Source: Acidobacteriota bacterium (GTDB lineage: Bacteria > Acidobacteriota > Terriglobia > Terriglobales > Acidobacteriaceae). From it: 64,000 nt of DNA. Under the pieces are notes generated by a model. The model searched no databases, was not told the DNA's origin, and saw only the letters and a program-made list of their open reading frames with translations. Positions within the stretch are counted from its first letter, which is position 1. Each line of letters opens with the position of its first letter. Made by a program: the position numbers and the translations under genes. The stretch is taken from contig JAJXZT010000049.1 in assembly GCA_021779935.1 (NCBI GenBank), positions 62,001 to 126,000 of the forward strand, written 5' to 3'. Below, in pieces: positions 18,634 through 56,824 of this stretch.

Positions 18634-18713
<80 letters not shown>

Positions 18714-47028: not shown

Positions 47029-49164
47029 ATGCAGCAAAAGAATTACTGCTTATCGTTTCTCATTCTTTTCCTCTACGCCCTGACTGCACCGCAGTTCGCC
47101 TTCGCGCAATCCACCGCTGCTCGCAGCGCCGCGGTAGAGCTCGTTCGCCATCTTTATTACAACCAGGATGGTTGGCTCGCTACGGCGGAAGCCAATCGGC
47201 TATTTGCCAAAAACCCGGATGACATCGAGCTTGCTGGCTGGCACGTCATGCTGGGCCAGAACGACAGCAAAGCTGCTGAGTATGTAGCTTCGATGAAGAA
47301 GCAGGCTCCTGACAGCCCATGGACGCTGCTTGCGGAATCCAACATTACCAGTGGCCCTCAGGTGGAGAAGCTCTGCAACGAGGCGATTGCCAAATCCAAT
47401 GGCGATCCGGACATCCTCTATCTGGCCACACAGAGATTGAGTTTTGCCGCGTATCTGTCGCGCGACGAAGCGACGTACAAGTCGTTTGTCGAGTCACACA
47501 AGAACGACTACGCGAAGTCCTCCGAAGGACTTTTCACCCTGGCCAGTGCCGAGCAATCTTTTGCCCACGGTGCAAGTTCAAAAGTCGATTCCATCATCGC
47601 CGTCTACGACAAGGCATTGCAGCTCGATCCAAAAAATGTCGGCGCAGCCATCGGCAAAGCAAATCTCCTGAAGTTCGCGGGCAAGTTTAAGGAGTCCCGC
47701 CAACTGCTGAAAGCAACCGTCCAGGCCGTTCCCGACTCGTATACTCTTCACGCCGCTTATTGGAATGCTATCGCCGCCGACATAGCCATCAAGCCTGAAG
47801 AGCAGCAGAAGCAGATCGTTGCTGACGCGCTTCAATTCTTCTCTCAGTACGAACCCAGTGCGCAGACGGTCAACATCGCTTCCAACGCACTCGAAGGCAT
47901 CGCTCCCAAGTCGACGAAAGAAGTCGCCGATCTCATCCTCAAGAAGTATCCCGATTCGCCTGCTTCTGACGCGGTATCCCTTGCTCTGGCGATGAAAGAC
48001 CTGCCCATGGCCACTTCCGAGCAGAACGTCACCGCAAAGATCATCGCGCTCGAAAAATTCCTCGACCGCCCCAAACACTACGACGATGAAGTCGTGAAAC
48101 AAGCCAATCAGAATCTTATCGGCTTGCTTGCGTCGGAAGACAGTCCCGACCTCGACCGGCTTTACAAGGCCACCGTCGCTGTTGGCGGTGCCCCGCTCGG
48201 AATCACCGTGCTCGCCACTCATAAAGTTCACCTGCCGGAGATTGAGTTCATGGCGATGAAGCAGGCGGACGATCAATGGGCGGAAATGCGGACCGCCATT
48301 GCCACGCAGGAAGACAAGACTGGCTTCCTCGGCTTCTGGATGGGTACGTTCGTCGAGCCCTGGCAGGACGCCCTCGGCTGGGTCTACTTCAATGAAGGCA
48401 AACTCGACGAAGCGCAGGCCAAGCTGGAGTTCGCTTCAAAACTTTCTCCTGACAATGTGACAGCCGCGATTCATCTCGGCCGCGTCTACGAAGCTCAGGG
48501 CCAGCTCGACAAGGCCGAGACGACCTTCAAGGAAGCGCTCGTTAAGCCCTATTACGGGGAAGGCGATCATCCCGCCGTCAAGGCATTGCGCGATCTTTAC
48601 ATTCACCGCCATGGCAACGCCGATGGCGTCGATGCCTACATGAAGCCGATCCTTGACCAGGATTTACAGCGCCGCAAGCGCGCCGTCCTCTCCGCGCGTA
48701 TCCGTTCTCCCAAGGAGATCGCGAATTTCTCTCTCAAGACGCTTGATGGCAAAACCGTCACTTCTGACAGTCTCAAGGGAAAAATTGCGGTCATCAACTT
48801 CTGGGCGACCTGGTGCGGCCCTTGTCGCAAGGAACTTCCCGACCTCAATAAGTTTTACGAAAAATACAAGAACGATCCGAACGTCGTTGTCCTCACCATG
48901 GCAACCGACGCGGAAGGAACGCCGACGGCTGTCATCGAAAACTTCATCAGCAAGAATAAGTATTCGTTCCCGGTGCTGCGTGCTCCAGAGTATGCAACCA
49001 GAAATGGCATCAACACGATACCGCTTACGTGGTTCGTCGATCCAACCGGCCACATCATCTTTTCTAAACTTGGTTACAGCAAGGAGCTGATGCAGGAGTT
49101 CACCTGGCGCCTCGAAGCCATTCGTAAATCCGAACCCGGAGCGGCAACTTCCAAATCCGATTAG
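47029..49164 (+). CDS. second TPR-repeat protein with C-terminal TlpA-like thioredoxin domain
   Basis: A 711-residue paralogue of the 43966 gene: a signal peptide (SFLILFLYALTAPQFAFAQS), a TPR-rich middle with a clear motif at ALGWVYFNEGKLDEAQAKLE and TAAIHLGRVYEAQGQLDKAE, and a thioredoxin domain starting ANFSLKTLDGKTVTSDSLKG with the active site WATWCGPCRKEL. Here the pair is CGPC rather than CAPC, the more usual TlpA sequence. ResA-like cis-Pro is present (NTIPLTWFVDPTG). The ATG follows AAGAGAG. A hairpin lacking a T-tract lies just after the stop. Confidence 0.85.
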   Translation: MQQKNYCLSFLILFLYALTAPQFAFAQSTAARSAAVELVRHLYYNQDGWLATAEANRLFAKNPDDIELAGWHVMLGQNDSKAAEYVASMKKQAPDSPWTLLAESNITSGPQVEKLCNEAIAKSNGDPDILYLATQRLSFAAYLSRDEATYKSFVESHKNDYAKSSEGLFTLASAEQSFAHGASSKVDSIIAVYDKALQLDPKNVGAAIGKANLLKFAGKFKESRQLLKATVQAVPDSYTLHAAYWNAIAADIAIKPEEQQKQIVADALQFFSQYEPSAQTVNIASNALEGIAPKSTKEVADLILKKYPDSPASDAVSLALAMKDLPMATSEQNVTAKIIALEKFLDRPKHYDDEVVKQANQNLIGLLASEDSPDLDRLYKATVAVGGAPLGITVLATHKVHLPEIEFMAMKQADDQWAEMRTAIATQEDKTGFLGFWMGTFVEPWQDALGWVYFNEGKLDEAQAKLEFASKLSPDNVTAAIHLGRVYEAQGQLDKAETTFKEALVKPYYGEGDHPAVKALRDLYIHRHGNADGVDAYMKPILDQDLQRRKRAVLSARIRSPKEIANFSLKTLDGKTVTSDSLKGKIAVINFWATWCGPCRKELPDLNKFYEKYKNDPNVVVLTMATDAEGTPTAVIENFISKNKYSFPVLRAPEYATRNGINTIPLTWFVDPTGHIIFSKLGYSKELMQEFTWRLEAIRKSEPGAATSKSD

Positions 49165-49426: not shown

Positions 49427-49454
49427 TTGACCCTGTGTATCGCGATGCGATAAG
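49427..49454 (+). promoter_or_regulatory. candidate sigma-70-type promoter of the ilv operon
   Basis: TTGACC at 49427-49432 (five of six matches to the -35 consensus) is followed after 16 bases by GATAAG (49449-49454, four of six to -10). Transcription would begin near 49461, giving an almost leaderless mRNA for the leader peptide that starts at 49470. A second upstream promoter is not excluded. Confidence 0.45.
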
Positions 49455-49469
49455 TTAACACCACCTCAG

Positions 49470-49616
49470 ATGTCACCCGCTTCGCAAACCCGCGCAAACA
49501 GCCGGTCTCTTGGCCTTCTGCCGAGCCTCCGCTTTTCTGCGCTTCGGGTCAGCGTCATTATTATTAGCATTAGCGTAGTAATCGTAATCGCCATTACGGG
49601 CGGTGCGGGGACGTAG
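49470..49616 (+). CDS. ilv leader peptide (Ile/Val-rich attenuation peptide)
   Basis: A 48-codon open frame whose C-terminal half reads [16 protein letters not shown]: 12 of the 16 residues at positions 27-42 are Ile or Val, followed by TGGAGT and a stop at 49614-49616. There are also five Leu codons in the first half. It lies directly upstream of a terminator and ilvD. This matches the logic of ilv attenuators: ribosome stalling at Ile/Val codons when the charged tRNAs are scarce. ATG at 49470 is the only in-frame start candidate; no clear ribosome-binding site precedes it, consistent with a very short 5' end. Functional translation is inferred. Confidence 0.75.
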
Positions 49617-49676
49617 GCTTAGAACAAAACAAAGTTCGAAAAGCCACCAACCGCACCGAGCGGGGGTGGCTTTTCT
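49601..49676 (+). promoter_or_regulatory. transcription attenuator of the ilv operon (antiterminator pairing and terminator)
   Basis: The terminator stem pairs 49638-49648 (GAAAAGCCACC) with 49665-49675 (GGTGGCTTTTC), with an inner stem CCGC (49651-49654)/GCGG (49660-49663), followed by a T-rich run (TCTTTTGCATTATTTTTC). The segment CGGTGCGG at 49601-49608, inside the last codons of the leader peptide, is exactly complementary to CCGCACCG at 49651-49658, which includes the 5' side of the inner terminator stem. A ribosome stalled at the Ile/Val codons would leave 49601-49608 free to pair and prevent termination; one reaching the stop codon would cover it. ilvD starts 30 bases downstream of the stem. 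Confidence 0.75.
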
Positions 49677-49705
49677 CTTTTGCATTATTTTTCGGGAGAA
49701 AAGTC

Positions 49706-51415
49706 ATGGACTCACGCGTACTTAAATCGAAGAGCACACCGTTGACGGAAGGCCCGCATCGCGCACCTGCCCGCGCCATGTTCAAGGCCGTCGGCTTCAC
49801 TGACGACGATCTACGAAAGCCCCTTGTCGCCATTGCCAACACCTGGACGGAAATCGGTCCGTGCAATTACCACCTTCGTGAACTTGCCGAGGCCGTCAAG
49901 GAAGGTGTCCGCGCCGCAGGCGGAACTCCCATGGAGTTCAACACCGTCACCATCTCCGACGGAATCACCATGGGAACCGAGGGGATGCGCGCATCGCTCG
50001 TCAGTCGCGAAGTCATCGCCGACTCCATCGAACTCGTCGTGCGCGCCAACATGTTTGACGCCGTCGTCGCCCTTGCCAGTTGCGACAAAACTCTGCCCGG
50101 AACCGTCATGGCTCTGGCGCGTCTCGACGTTCCCGCGCTCATGCTCTACGGCGGATCGATCGCCCCCGGCCAGTTCGAAGGCAAGTCCGTCACCATTCAG
50201 GATGTCTTCGAAGCTGTCGGTGCGCACGCCGCGGGTGCGATGAGCGACGCGCGCCTCACCGCCCTTGAGGATCACGCCTGTCCCGGCGCCGGCGCCTGTG
50301 GCGGACAATTCACCGCAAACACCATGGCGCTCGCCTGCGAATTTCTCGGCATCTCGCCTCTCGGCAGTGCAAGCGTTCCTGCCACCGTCGCGGACAAACT
50401 CGAAGTTTCACGCCGTATGGGTCACATGGTGATGGATCTGTTGAAGCGCGATATCAAGCCCTCTGCCATTCTCACGCGCCAGGCGTTTCTCAACGCTGTC
50501 GCCAGTGTTTCTGCCTCCGGTGGCTCCACCAACGCCGTCCTTCACCTCATTGCGATGGCCCACGAAGCCGGCGTGCAACTTTCGCTCGACGATCTCGGCG
50601 ATGTCTTTTCGAAGGTTCCGCTTCTTTGCGATCTCAAGCCCGGCGGGCGCTACGTTGCCACGGATTTCTACGCCGCTGGCGGTTCCCGTTTGCTTGCCCG
50701 GCGTCTCGCGGAGATGGGGCTGCTTGACACTTCTTGCGTGACAGCCAGTTCTCGCACGCTCGGCGACGATCTCGCTGACGCCAAGGAGACTCCCGGGCAG
50801 GATGTCATCCGTCCCGCCGATCAATATCTTAAACCGACGGGTGGCATCGCCATCCTCAAGGGAAATCTTTCCCCGGAAGGTTGCGTCGTAAAACTTGTTG
50901 GCCACGAGCGCCTGGTGCATCGCGGTCCCGCGCGAGTTTTCGAAAGTGAAGAAGACGCCTTTGAGGCCGTGCAGAGCGGCGCGATTCATCCCGGCGACGT
51001 CGTTGTCATCCGCAATGAAGGTCCGCGCGGCGGCCCCGGTATGCGCGAGATGCTTGCCGTCACCGCCGCCATCGCCGGCACTCCACTTGGCAAAACCGTC
51101 GCGCTTATTACGGATGGGCGTTTTTCCGGCGCAACGCACGGTTTCATGGTTGCGCACATCGCTCCGGAAGCCGCAGTCGGCGGTCCCATCGCTCTTGTTC
51201 GTGAGGGAGAGACCGTCGTCATCGACACCGCCAATCACGTTCTCTCCGTTGAAGTCTCTGACGAAGAACTGCGCAATCGCGCCCGCGAGTGGAAGCCACG
51301 CCCGCGGAGATACAACTCTGGTGTTTTCGCGAAGTATGCCGACACCGTTTCCTCCGCTGCGCTGGGTGCCGTTACAAACGCCAGTCGCAATGCGGAACTT
51401 GCGCTCGCGAGGTAA
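49706..51415 (+). CDS. ilvD: dihydroxy-acid dehydratase
   Basis: A 569-residue Fe-S dehydratase, the fourth step of the Ile/Val pathway, converting 2,3-dihydroxy acids to 2-keto acids. Conserved cysteine motifs are ASCDKTLPG and [20 protein letters not shown], with a further IEL-like segment [20 protein letters not shown] near the C-terminus. Length equals the family norm of about 560. The ATG is preceded by GGGAGAAAAG. First structural gene of a six-gene operon, just after the attenuator. Confidence 0.96.
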
Positions 51416-51418
51416 ACC

Positions 51419-53120
51419 GTGAAAATGACAGGAGCCGAAATCATCTGGAAGAGCCTGGAGCACGAAGGCGTCACTACCGTCTTCGGATATCCCGGCGGCG
51501 CAATTCTTCCAACCTATGACGCGCTGAAGTCTTCGTCCATTCACCACGTCCTCGTGCGCCATGAGCAGGGAGCCACGCATATGGCCGATGGCTATGCGCG
51601 CGCCAGCGGAAAAGTCGGAGTCGCCATCGCGACCTCCGGCCCCGGTGCCACCAACATGGTTACCGGGATCGCCACCGCCATGATGGACTCTTCGCCTATC
51701 GTCTGCATCACCGGACAGGTCGGCAGCAAACTCATCGGCTCCGATGCATTTCAGGAAACTGACATCACCGGTGTCACGCTCCCCGTCACCAAGCACAACT
51801 ATCTCGTCACGCATCCGTCGGAAATTGCACGCACCATTCGCGAGGCTTTCTACATCGCCAAGTCCGGCCGCCCCGGTCCGGTGCTCATCGACGTCACCAA
51901 GGACGCGCAACAGGGGTTGTGCGAATTTGAATGGGACGCTGCCCGGCCGCAACTTCCCGGGTATCGCCCCGATCTTTCGCCCAGCCTCGACGAGTTTGAA
52001 GACGCCCTGGAGTTGATCCACAACGCGAAGCGCCCGCTCATTCTTGCCGGTCACGGAATCATGATCTCCGGCGCCATGCGCGAAGTACTCGAACTCGCCG
52101 AGCGCGGCAACATTCCTGTCGCTGTCACGCTGCTCGGCATCGGCAGCCTTCCCGCATCGCATCCGCTCAATCTCGGCATGATGGGTATGCACGGCGAAGC
52201 CTGGGTCAATCATGCAATCCAGGAAGCCGATTTGCTCATCGCCCTTGGCATGCGCTTCGACGATCGCGTCACCGGCAACCTTGCGTCCTATGCGCAGAAC
52301 GCAAAGAAGATCCACGTTGAAATCGACCCGGCCGAGATCAACAAGATCGTCAAGGTTGACGTCGCGCTTGTGGGCGACCTTGCCTGTGTACTGCGCGACC
52401 TGTTGCCTCGCGTCGAATACCGTGCGCGCGAGGATTGGTTCTCGTTGATTCACGAGTACAAGGGTGATGCCGCTGTCCGTGACATTCAGAACCTGCCTGA
52501 CAACGGCCACCTCTATGCCGCCCACGTTATCAACGACATCTGGCGCGAGACACAGGGTCGCGCCGTCGTTGTTACCGATGTCGGCCAGCACCAGATGTGG
52601 GAGGCGCAGTATTACAAGCACGAAGGGCCGCGTTCGCTCATCACCTCCGGTGGCCTCGGAACCATGGGGTTTGCATTGCCAGCGGCTATAGGAGCAAAAA
52701 TGGCAAAGCCCGGCGCGGAAGTCTGGGTCGTCGTCGGTGACGGCGGCTTCCAGATGACCATGCCCGAACTAGCGACCATGGTGCAGGAAAAACTCGACGT
52801 CAAGATCGCCATCATCAACAACGGATTCCTCGGTATGGTCCGGCAGTGGCAGGAATTCTTCTACGACAAGAACTATCAGTCCACGCCGCTGCTCAGTCCC
52901 GACTTCTGCAAGATCGCCGATGCCTATGGCGTGCTCAGCGAGGCTGTCAGCCGGCGCGAAGATGTTGTTTCTGCCGTCGGCACGGCGCGCCATCACCTCG
53001 GCCCGGTCCTGCTTGACTTCCATGTTGAGCAGGAGGATTCCGTCTATCCAATGGTTCCCGCTGGTGCGGATCTTCGCGGCATGATCCTCCGTCCCAGCCC
53101 AATCGTCGAAACGGCACAGG

Positions 53121-53128
<8 letters not shown>
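51419..53128 (+). CDS. ilvB: acetolactate synthase large (catalytic) subunit
   Basis: A 569-residue ThDP enzyme condensing two pyruvates, or pyruvate with 2-ketobutyrate. The activating Glu lies in HEQGATHMADGYARASGKVG; the FAD-binding middle domain (about 190-330) and the ThDP motif GDGGFQMTMPELATMVQEKL are intact. It starts at GTG (51419), three bases after the ilvD stop, or at ATG 51425; GCGAGG precedes. Its stop overlaps the ilvN start. Expected to work as a complex with the small subunit encoded next. Confidence 0.96.
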
Positions 53129-54786
<1,658 letters not shown>

Positions 54787-54827: not shown

Positions 54828-55796
54828 GTGTCATTGTCGGATTGTAAGTTCGTATGGAAAAACGGCCAGGTCGTGCCATGGGAGCAGGCCACCGTGCATG
54901 TCTCATCCCACGGTCTTCACTATGGAACCGGCGTCTTCGAAGGCATGCGTTGTTACAAGACGTCGAGCGGCCCGGCCGTCTTTCGACTCACCGAGCATCT
55001 TGACCGCTGGCTTGCGTCCGCTGCCGTCTATGGCATGAAGTTGCCGTACTCGCGCCAGCAGCTTGCCCAGGCCACGCTGCAAATCATCGCCGCCAATGGT
55101 TTTGAGGGCTGCTACATCCGCCCCATAGCTTTTTACGGGTCGGATGGCCTCAGCGTTCATCCTCGCAACTGTCCCGTCGAAGTCATGATTTTCGCCTGGC
55201 CTTGGGGCGCATACCTCGGCGGCGACGCTCTCGAACACGGCATTCGCGCCACCGTATCTCCCTGGAAAAAATTCCAGTCCGATGCGATTCCCGCCACCGC
55301 CAAGGCTTGCGGGCAATATCTGAACTCCGTTCTCGCTGTTCAGGATGCCATAGCTCGTGGATATGATGAGGCTATTCTCCTCGATAGCGCCGGCTGTGTC
55401 ACCGAGGGCTCCGGAGAGAATCTCTTCTTCGTCAAGGGTGGCCGCCTCTGCACGAATGACGAGCGCAGTTCGGTGCTGATGGGCATTACCCGCGACGCAG
55501 TCCTGCGACTGGCGCGTGAGATGGGCATCGCCGTCTCGATTCAGCAGCTCACCCTTGCGGATGTCCAACAGGCTGACGAGGCTTTCTTCACCGGCACCGC
55601 CGTCGAGGTCACGCCAGTCGCATCCATTGATGATCATCCGATCGGTGCCGGCAAGCGAGGTCCAGTCACGGCGATGTTGCAACGCGCTTTCTTTGACGTT
55701 ACCGGCGGCACAAATCCGCAGTATGCGAACTGGCTCACGCCGGTACCTGTTGCGAAGAATGATGAGCGCCTCGTCTCGCAGGGAGCATCGTTATGA
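54828..55796 (+). CDS. ilvE: branched-chain amino acid aminotransferase (class IV)
   Basis: A 322-residue PLP enzyme transferring amino groups to the branched-chain keto acids, the final step. The GTG at 54828 is chosen: AGGAGG (54817-54822) sits at the right distance and MSLSDCKFVWKNGQVVPWEQ is the usual N-terminus, whereas the nearby ATG at 54826 is out of frame. Conserved segments include HGLHYGTGVFEGMRCY, the PLP-Lys region PATAKACGQYLNSVLAVQDA, EGSGENLFFVKGG and GTAVEVTPVASID. Overlaps ilvA by four bases. Confidence 0.94.
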   Translation: MSLSDCKFVWKNGQVVPWEQATVHVSSHGLHYGTGVFEGMRCYKTSSGPAVFRLTEHLDRWLASAAVYGMKLPYSRQQLAQATLQIIAANGFEGCYIRPIAFYGSDGLSVHPRNCPVEVMIFAWPWGAYLGGDALEHGIRATVSPWKKFQSDAIPATAKACGQYLNSVLAVQDAIARGYDEAILLDSAGCVTEGSGENLFFVKGGRLCTNDERSSVLMGITRDAVLRLAREMGIAVSIQQLTLADVQQADEAFFTGTAVEVTPVASIDDHPIGAGKRGPVTAMLQRAFFDVTGGTNPQYANWLTPVPVAKNDERLVSQGASL

Positions 55797-56824
55797 CCGG
55801 CGACAGTGGCGTAAGTGACGTAACCTATTCCATGGTGCAATGCGCGCGTCAGCGTATTGCACCTTACATCCATCGCACCCCGCTTGTTCGCAGCTCCACT
55901 CTCAGCAATCTTTTCAATGCCAACGTATATCTAAAGATGGAAATCTTCCAGCGAACCGGCGCGTTCAAGGTTCGTGGAGCCTTCAACAAGATGCTTTCCC
56001 TTGGCCAGCGGGCCTCTCGCGGCGTCGTTGCCGTCAGTGCCGGCAACCATGCGCAGGCCGTGGCTTATGCCGCGCAGTGTTGTCACGTGCCGGCCGTCGT
56101 GCTTCTTCCCAATGACACTCCGCAGAACTATGTCGACGCCACGCGCGGTTACGGTGCTGCCGTCGCATTCGTCTCCGATCTCGCCGAAGGCTTTCGTGAG
56201 GTTGCGGCCTTCGAGCGTCGCGGTTACACCTTCATTCATCCCTTTGGAGATCCGCTCGTTGTTGCCGGGCAGGGAAGCATCGGTCTTGAGATTCACGATG
56301 ATCTCCCTGGCGTCACGGATGTTTTTGTCAGCATCGGTGGCGGTGGTTTGGCTTGCGGGACCGCTGTCGGGTTGAAGGGAAGGAATCCGTCCATCCGGGT
56401 CTGGGGCGTGGAAACTCGCGGCGCCGATTCGATGGCGCAGGCGCTCGATGCCGGCAAGATCGTCCAACTCCCCCGCATCACCTCGCGTGCCAAAACTCTT
56501 GGCGCTCCGAGCGTCTCTCCCCTTACGCTTCAACTCGCGCGTCAGTTGCTCGAAGAGGTTGTCGTTGTCTCCGATGACGAGGCCACTCGTGATGCCATCT
56601 TCCTTCTCGAACGCACCAAGGTTCTCACCGAGTTGGCTGCTTCATGCACGCTCAGCGCCTTGCATCTCCGTCGCGACTGTCTCACTCCTGCCTCCAATGT
56701 CGTCCTGGTGCTTTGCGGCGGAAATGCGTGCTTGTCTGATCTTGTCGATGATTCCCGCGAACATGCATTGCCACTACCTGGAAATCGCATGCATTCCGAA
56801 CAACTGCCCAGTTCTTTCGCGTAA
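55793..56824 (+). CDS. ilvA: threonine dehydratase, short form without regulatory domain
   Basis: A 343-residue PLP enzyme deaminating threonine to 2-ketobutyrate, the entry of the isoleucine branch. The PLP-Lys motif FQRTGAFKVRGAFNKM, the Asn/His site VSAGNHAQAVAYAAQ and the phosphate-binding loop GGGGLACG are intact. The protein ends soon after the catalytic core (VLVLCGGNACLSDL). So the C-terminal ACT-like isoleucine-binding domain of classical biosynthetic IlvA (about 510 residues) is absent. Catabolic TdcB-type enzymes are the alternative, but the operon position favours a biosynthetic role. Confidence 0.92.
   Translation: MTGDSGVSDVTYSMVQCARQRIAPYIHRTPLVRSSTLSNLFNANVYLKMEIFQRTGAFKVRGAFNKMLSLGQRASRGVVAVSAGNHAQAVAYAAQCCHVPAVVLLPNDTPQNYVDATRGYGAAVAFVSDLAEGFREVAAFERRGYTFIHPFGDPLVVAGQGSIGLEIHDDLPGVTDVFVSIGGGGLACGTAVGLKGRNPSIRVWGVETRGADSMAQALDAGKIVQLPRITSRAKTLGAPSVSPLTLQLARQLLEEVVVVSDDEATRDAIFLLERTKVLTELAASCTLSALHLRRDCLTPASNVVLVLCGGNACLSDLVDDSREHALPLPGNRMHSEQLPSSFA

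Follow-up and report, generated by a model that had tools for sequence, protein, structure and literature searches.

The question raised by this locus is whether an acidobacterial ilv operon is controlled by transcription attenuation through a translated leader, and, if it is, whether the attenuator stands alone or belongs to a wider class. We have analysed positions 49427–49705 of a 64,000-nucleotide stretch of Acidobacteriota DNA (the window), a region flanked on one side by an ORF that ends at 49164 and on the other by ilvD, which starts at 49706, with the genes downstream in the order ilvD-B-N-C-E-A. We consider it highly probable that the region controls the ilvDBNCEA operon as a ribosome-mediated transcription attenuator. 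At the level of the class, both RNA pairings covary and the codon run fits the pathway, and in the window itself the anatomy is improbable by chance.

Leader anatomy and operon organization

The features of the region are collected in Table 1. The leader frame is reproduced from the sequence as originally predicted, with 48 codons, an end at 49616 and Ile or Val at 12 of the 16 residues 27–42, and ATG 49470 is the only ATG, GTG or TTG of that open frame. The 8-bp exact complementarity is reproduced likewise, 49601–49608 (CGGTGCGG) being the exact reverse complement of 49651–49658, and a fold of 49590–49700 gives the antiterminator form, in which CGGTGCGG:CCGCACCG is accompanied by GGCTT:AAGCC and GAAC:GTTC. 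The proposed terminator with a T-rich tail holds for the stem, which has a dG of about -25 (-25.3, or -26.5 kcal/mol with a few flanking bases in a fold of 49638–49685), but the U-tract is interrupted (TCTTTTGCATTATTTTT, 49676–49692) and the consensus scanner did not pick up the stem. The distance of 30 nt from the stem to the start of ilvD is as had been described. The proposed promoter is similarly mixed in that it has 9 of 12 matches and recurs before the leaders L166 and L209, but a T is missing at its last position and it is absent from the consensus scanner's list.

Table 1. Features of the putative attenuator and the downstream operon.
Feature	Position	Strand	Basis or remark
Putative promoter TTGACC-N16-GATAAG	49427–49454	+	9/12 consensus matches; weak
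Leader peptide ORF, 48 codons, ATG 49470, stop TAG 49614–49616	49470–49616	+	Sequence, shuffles
Sensing codons, 12 Ile/Val, -22 to -7 before stop	49548–49595	+	Class position profile agrees
Short hairpin CGTAAT/ATTACG immediately 5' of arm 2	49583–49598	+	Read by eye
R1 covariance model match	49598–49680	+	19.8 bits; top site of window and whole genome
Arm 2, antiterminator 5' strand CGGTGCGG	49601–49608	+	Sequence
GGCTT, antiterminator extension through pairing with 49641–49645	49616–49620	+	Fold of 49590–49700
Terminator stem-loop (3:4), followed by interrupted U-tract 49676–49692	49638–49675	+	Folding, shuffles
Arm 3 CCGCACCG, common to antiterminator and terminator	49651–49658	+	Sequence
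ilvD, dihydroxy-acid dehydratase, predicted first gene controlled	49706–51415	+	NCBIfam TIGR00110 above cut-off
ilvB, acetolactate synthase large subunit	51419–53128	+	TIGR00118 above cut-off
ilvN, acetolactate synthase small subunit	53121–53678	+	TIGR00119 above cut-off
ilvC, ketol-acid reductoisomerase	53707–54786	+	TIGR00465 above cut-off
ilvE, branched-chain aminotransferase, start approximate	54831–55796	+	TIGR01122 above cut-off
ilvA-like threonine ammonia-lyase	55793–56824	+	Best NCBIfam TIGR01127, 263.6 bits, below cut-off 378.75

The TIGR01127 match of the ilvA-like gene spans profile positions 1–287 of 380. We also note that several relatives have stronger hairpins at the place that corresponds to the short hairpin 5' of arm 2. 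In five of them (L104, L110, L114, L116 and L120) a strong hairpin of down to -23.7 kcal/mol lies within the codon run and directly 5' of arm 2, where it may serve to pause RNA polymerase.

The chance occurrence of this arrangement was assessed with dinucleotide shuffles of the 541-nt intergenic stretch. At least 10 Ile or Val within 12 residues were found in 0 of 20,000 shuffles, as was the full composite at relaxed cut-offs (0 of 20,000), and a terminator-like hairpin with a dG of -25 or below arose in 2 of 300. The composite was not found on the reverse strand of the 541-nt stretch.

The short distance between the putative promoter and the leader ATG was originally regarded as unusual, and this is an element that we do not retain. 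A survey of 80 leader entries, in which the window was entered twice and some starts are uncertain, gave a promoter-like match (score at least 8.5) in 43, compared to 13% in mononucleotide shuffles, and in 18 of those 43 the gap from the -10 element to the ATG is 20 nt or less, compared to 29% in the shuffles. A 4-nt Shine-Dalgarno match is present in 8 of the 80 entries. Near-leaderless starts are thus common enough for the one at the window to be unremarkable, although the statistical case is a modest one. In L166 and L209, too, TTGACC-N16-GATAAG is separated from the leader ATG by 12 nt, and L164 has a version with N15 at a distance of 10 nt, but these likenesses are not independent because all three leaders come from one genus (g166).

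Leaders of related ilv loci

Among the matches listed for the ilvB protein of the window, 80 named loci were kept, and composite leaders precede ilvD or ilvB in 27 of them, a raw count uncorrected for chance. The loci with composite ilv leaders are named as Acidobacteria of several groups, as Verrucomicrobia (some Opitutia) and as Chloroflexi, and further ilv leaders in relatives are those of L010, L011, L012, L054, L060, L080 and L081. Among 19 leaders used for training, 14 end in Ser-Gly-stop, and 12 of the 19 have AGCGGATGA at that place. In these leaders the antiterminator arm, GCGGATGATG, includes the stop codon, and the terminator has the form GGGCCATCATCC...GGATGATGGCCC; other terminator forms (ACCCACC...GGTGGGTTT) are present in the window's own family.

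A covariance model (R1) was built from these 19 ilv leaders of relatives, with the window excluded. It has 79 positions and 12 terminator pairs, represents arm 2 as sequence only with the 2:3 pairing unmodelled, and begins three codons before the stop, so that the codon run lies outside it. In the window the best R1 site is the one at the leader, with an E-value of 0.00059 and the next site at 13.0 bits, and in the whole 4.49-Mb genome the same site again comes first, with a modest score (19.8 bits, E 0.041), followed by one of 17.3 bits. The composite shuffles, the similar leaders in relatives and this first rank together support the original Ile/Val attenuation reading.

The window site differs from the class in its letters. 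It does not contain the class core letters GGATGATGG, and where the class has its stop inside an antiterminator arm with the core GGATGATG, arm 2 of the window is CGGTGCGG and ends 8 nt short of the end of the stop codon. Because the core letters are absent, we classify the site from its sequence as a diverged relative of the Acidobacteriota attenuator class and not as a strict member, a kinship that the R1 rank supports; its mode of action would be that of the class. R1 matches occur in 11 genomes of the window's own family, and in nine of these no recognised gene follows the match.

A phylum-wide class with exchangeable codons

R1 matches at E of 1e-3 or below occur in 60 of 396 genomes of the phylum. 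From this search 101 places were listed, and 88 were read after 13 antisense mirrors had been dropped. The next gene was recognised at 70 of the 88: ilv at 25, hom/thrA at 13, cimA at eight, pheA at five, cys at four, an unannotated protein of about 90 residues at four, LysR at three, and ilvA, MFS, gltB and cupin at two each, the names MFS and cupin having been assigned by eye. At the other 18 there is no recognised next gene (L184 lies at a contig end). An amino-acid biosynthesis gene (ilv, hom/thrA, cimA, pheA, cys, ilvA or gltB) is thus next in 59 of the 88 places.

The codons of each leader were read in the best frame ending at the core stop, over its last 24 codons, with the same rule applied to permuted labels. 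The expected residue was compared with its fraction in the other leaders, giving 0.349 versus 0.162 for ilv (I+V), 0.231 versus 0.076 for thr (T), 0.271 versus 0.034 for cys (C), 0.219 versus 0.115 for cimA (I) and 0.125 versus 0.131 for ilvA (I). Over the 52 labelled leaders, the observed total was not attained in any of 20,000 permutations of the labels; by group, the counts of 20,000 are 0 for ilv, thr and cys, 130 for cimA and 11,561 for ilvA. Three labels had been assigned manually from the gene context once the leaders were known (L165 and L210 as cys, L225 as pheA). When they are taken out, leaving 50 leaders of which two are cys, the count for the total is still 0 of 20,000 and that for cys becomes 19. 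Examples of runs before the stop are VVVVVRGVGVVMTPAVSG at ilvD (L104, a training row), RPTMTRTTTITTGDSSGG at thrA (L195), RACACPCCCPACCRRQDVVYG at cysK (L231) and THIGIAIIIITGVSPGG at cimA (L224).

A second set came from the class of G272, where R1 matches at E of 1e-4 or below occur in 92 of 193 genomes, some of them shared with the first set. Among the matches listed there were 96 places in new genomes once mirrors had been dropped, and eight identical to training or earlier matches were removed. The remaining 88 comprise 31 thr, 21 ilv, 17 pheA, two LysR, two of the protein of about 90 residues, one ilvA and 14 without a recognised gene; these 14 include L369 and L382 (ileS-like), L314 (no readable frame) and L398 (118 nt downstream). 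In the 53 labelled leaders of this set I+V is 0.282 versus 0.117 at ilv (0 of 20,000) and T is 0.156 versus 0.070 at thr (4 of 20,000), with the total again at 0 of 20,000. When both sets are reduced to one leader per genus and category, with no hand labels (54 leaders), the total is 0 of 20,000 and the groups give 0 for ilv, 0 for thr, 109 for cimA, 375 for cys (n=1) and 7,551 for ilvA. Leaders of ilvA, two in the first set and one in the second, show no clear Ile excess. The Ile/Val run, whose conservation was originally proposed as a check, is kept before ilv genes, and other codon runs stand before other pathways.

Several further leaders bear on the range of genes involved. The Ile-rich leaders L369 and L382 precede ileS-like genes (the best match of L369, a partial sequence, is TIGR00392, below the full-length cut-off, and L382 is ileS-like by eye), for which attenuation of a tRNA synthetase gene is predicted. 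Met, Phe, Leu and Trp were examined post hoc on pooled leaders, and in these tests, as in the comparisons of helix lengths and cores, the second set enters without 13 of its listed places; with that composition, the Met excess in hom leaders is 0.094 versus 0.049 (0 of 20,000). Met-rich leaders stand before hom in L322, L325, L372, L378 and L388, as if the methionine branch sensed homoserine flux. Leu/Trp-rich leaders precede the protein of about 90 residues in L164, L166, L180, L209, L316 and L384. This protein ends in GYGHGI or similar where fully read, one copy that was tested has no NCBIfam match, and in L164, L166, L180 and L209 its gene lies beside ilvC on the opposite strand. Leu-rich leaders precede a cupin-like protein ending in ENYLWGV in L201 and L203, and a YLWGV tail (DYLWGV) also occurs in ORFs just upstream of ilvB in L035, L037, L038, L045 and L046. 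The leaders before LysR-type regulators (L162, L183, L196, L331 and L354) have an ambiguous codon signal.

The genome of the window also contains a hom gene about 7 kb beyond the window, with a leader MKTNVQICTSITITATTMVAIHPCFWRT-stop that is a Thr/Ile candidate. Its arm 2, GCTTCTGGCG, spans -17 to -7 relative to the end of the stop, its terminator is AACCGCCGCCAGAAGCCCTGGCGGCGGTT with TTGTTTT, and by eye there is a TTGACG...TAGTTT promoter-like match near the ATG. By eye, L278 has the same arms. Among 30 hom loci fetched from relatives the Thr composite was found in one, that of this genome. With the finder set to the other residues in turn, between 0 and 4 of the 30 loci were flagged (Arg 4, Gly 2, Ser 2, Ala 1, Asn 1), and we reject the idea that a Thr leader is common to the family. 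The Thr leader of this genome is a candidate on the strength of its anatomy and of the phylum-wide Thr group. No composite was found at the leuA-like gene of the same genome (L270).

Covariation and the proposed mechanism

Both pairings were compared as duplex energies between each leader's own arms and foreign arms. In 70 leaders the arm 2 zone with arm 3 has a mean of -22.8 for own and -18.4 for foreign partners, and 3:4 has -26.1 and -19.9, each with 0 of 5,000 permutations. With one match per genus and category (45 leaders) the values are -23.4 versus -18.5 kcal/mol for 2:3 and -26.1 versus -20.5 kcal/mol for 3:4, again at 0 of 5,000 each, and two control zone pairs in the same 45 leaders give no signal (2080 and 3823 of 5,000). 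Covariation of the two pairings, proposed originally as a check, is accordingly seen at the level of the class and not in the window's own letters. A column test on the 19 training rows gives a 3:4 covariation score reached in 0 of 500 shuffles and a weak 2:3 signal (16 of 500 shuffles for the covariation score and 33 of 500 for cells paired), the latter because the arms hardly vary in those rows.

The position of the sensing codons suggests how the ribosome would act. In 50 leaders of relatives the sensing residues, counted back from the stop, are most frequent between about -8 and -20 and fall to near zero at -1 to -3, in a profile taken from the frame richest in the expected residue, which lifts its level and not its position; the window codons at -7 to -22 are consistent with this. 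Such a position is what the geometry requires: a ribosome stalled there would leave arm 2 accessible, and one that has reached the stop would cover it.

We propose that a ribosome initiates the 48-codon leader near the 5' end of the RNA. When charged tRNA-Ile or tRNA-Val is scarce it would stall in the run 49548–49595, arm 2 would remain free to pair with arm 3, aided by GGCTT:AAGCC and GAAC:GTTC, and with the antiterminator formed RNA polymerase would continue into ilvD. When both charged tRNAs are plentiful, the ribosome would reach the UAG at 49614 and cover arm 2, and the terminator 49638–49675 would form. For 49427–49705 we infer the stalling, the masking, the start site and the starvation-dependent readthrough each from the sequence.

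Origin of the attenuator

The original prediction left room for an independent or an ancient instance. Similar leaders are found across Acidobacteriota, so that attenuation leaders are probably an old trait of the phylum, and an isolated instance is improbable. For the shared core of the class one model, to which we give about even chances, is that of an ancestral cassette used as a plug-in, in which the core spread between operons within genomes, new codon runs were fitted to it, near-leaderless initiation delivered the ribosome, and the window carries a diverged copy. A second model, which we regard as possible but rather less credible, holds that the core is convergent, with the constraint of a stop inside the arm recreating GGATGATG independently in each operon. 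A UGA stop inside the arm does limit the choice of sequence, and in two of its reading frames GGATGATGTAG closes with a stop codon; however, the shared letters reach the whole terminator, and the leaders of Verrucomicrobia and E. coli have other letters. Moreover, two or more pathway labels occur in 35 of 99 genomes, and the mean likeness of cores of different pathways is higher within a genome, at 0.639 over 41 pairs, than across genomes, at 0.612 over 7273 pairs (0 of 2,000 permutations, with the second set in the reduced form described above). This likeness favours copying with codon exchange, or a lineage-wide constraint, over unrelated origins.

If the plug-in cassette model is correct, the cassette would sense Ile/Val at ilv, Ile at cimA and ileS, Thr and Met at hom/thrA, Cys at cysK and cysG, Leu at small ORFs, and Val/Phe at pheA-ilv. 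The class would extend leader-peptide attenuation to a large, hard-to-culture phylum. It also suggests that attenuators may form an RNA family that is reused with different sensing codons, so that their origin, whether by convergence or by copying, becomes open to direct tests. Nutrient-limitation switches could then be read from sequence in soil genomes, and regulation predicted for listed genes such as ileS and the small Leu-linked ORFs.

The remaining alternatives concern the window leader itself. Acquisition from Proteobacteria of an attenuator of the ilvGMEDA type, unrelated to the acidobacterial class, seems improbable to us. Locally aligned to the ilvL region of E. coli K-12, the window scores 39 (0 of 3,000 shuffles), but it aligns better with L060 (49), L011 (46) and L080 (40), and R1 has no match in the E. 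coli stretch. L081 scores 42 against E. coli, and the score of the window can therefore be put down to codons and layout in common. A kinship specific to E. coli ilvL was rejected because the alignment score does not stand out among those of other leaders.

Slightly less probable still is that the frame encodes a functional small membrane-like peptide, or serves translational coupling, with the hairpin merely ending a small-RNA gene. The hydrophobic I/V run resembles a membrane segment, and a leader peptide is reported to act in trans (peTrpL, PMC7298713). However, the matching residue is Thr, Cys or Ile according to the pathway that follows, ends rich in Thr or Cys are poorly suited to form membrane segments, and arms 2 and 3 covary. 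The least probable reading, an ordinary terminator of an upstream transcript or a fixed leaky terminator next to a chance Ile/Val-rich frame, can draw on terminators being common and on a hairpin this strong arising in the shuffles, but the absence of the composite from all 20,000 of them, the retention of the layout with different letters in relatives and the first R1 rank in the genome speak against it.

Relation to known systems

The attenuator preferred here has clear counterparts elsewhere. E. coli ilvGMEDA likewise has a short Ile/Val-rich leader (ilvL) and a terminator before the first structural genes, and its attenuator also forms an alternative pairing; unlike the window, ilvL includes Leu codons. 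In thrL, leuL and hisL of Proteobacteria the codon run fits the respective pathway, as it does in the acidobacterial class. In Acidobacteriota, however, one core sequence serves several pathways, whereas to our knowledge the proteobacterial attenuators share no common core. Leader-peptide attenuators are also found outside Proteobacteria, in actinobacteria, with Cys-rich and leaderless or near-leaderless forms among them; examples are Corynebacterium ilvBNC and the leaderless polycysteine ORFs of mycobacteria.

A search of Rfam 15 at the gathering score, which covers T-box, riboswitch and His, Thr, Trp and Leu leader families, gave no match at the window leader, and five loci of relatives gave one sub-threshold match located elsewhere (speF, 21.6 bits, E 0.23); an Rfam, T-box or riboswitch identity was therefore rejected for the window and the five loci. 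The sole Rfam match in the window is a tRNA gene at 18640–18713 on the minus strand. Among the papers listed in PMC searches, none describes amino-acid operons of Acidobacteria as controlled by leader-peptide attenuation; Lopatovskaya 2010 could contain cases. According to PMC4833913, short leader genes generally show a peak at certain distances, in Acidobacteria as well, and in Weinberg 2010 (PMC2864571) Acido-1 and Acido-Lenti-1 are both marked n for cis-regulation. The mechanism is known; by these searches, an attenuator core that is conserved across a phylum while its sensing codons are exchanged seems not to have been described.

Outside the phylum, R1 matches at E of 1e-3 or below were obtained in two of 11 control genomes. 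One is a metagenome-assembled genome named Betaproteobacteria (G552, L157/L264), which has an acidobacterial-type ilvD attenuator with a V/I-rich leader and is possibly a misnamed assembly or a case of transfer; the other, G547, has a match without a leader frame that we take as chance. Among these control genomes, at the same threshold, none of six Verrucomicrobia has a match and one of three Chloroflexi has one, without a leader frame. The ilvD leaders of Verrucomicrobia (Opitutia) and Chloroflexi resemble the window in their I/V/L-rich leader, terminator and antiterminator, but those of Verrucomicrobia, unlike the class, have their own core, GGGCGGC(T), with its complement. Own-core ilvD leaders were seen in L125, L131, L137, L141, L144 and L153 of Verrucomicrobia and in L132, L140 and L159 of Chloroflexi, and L131, L137, L141 and L153 share a conserved leader-peptide end.
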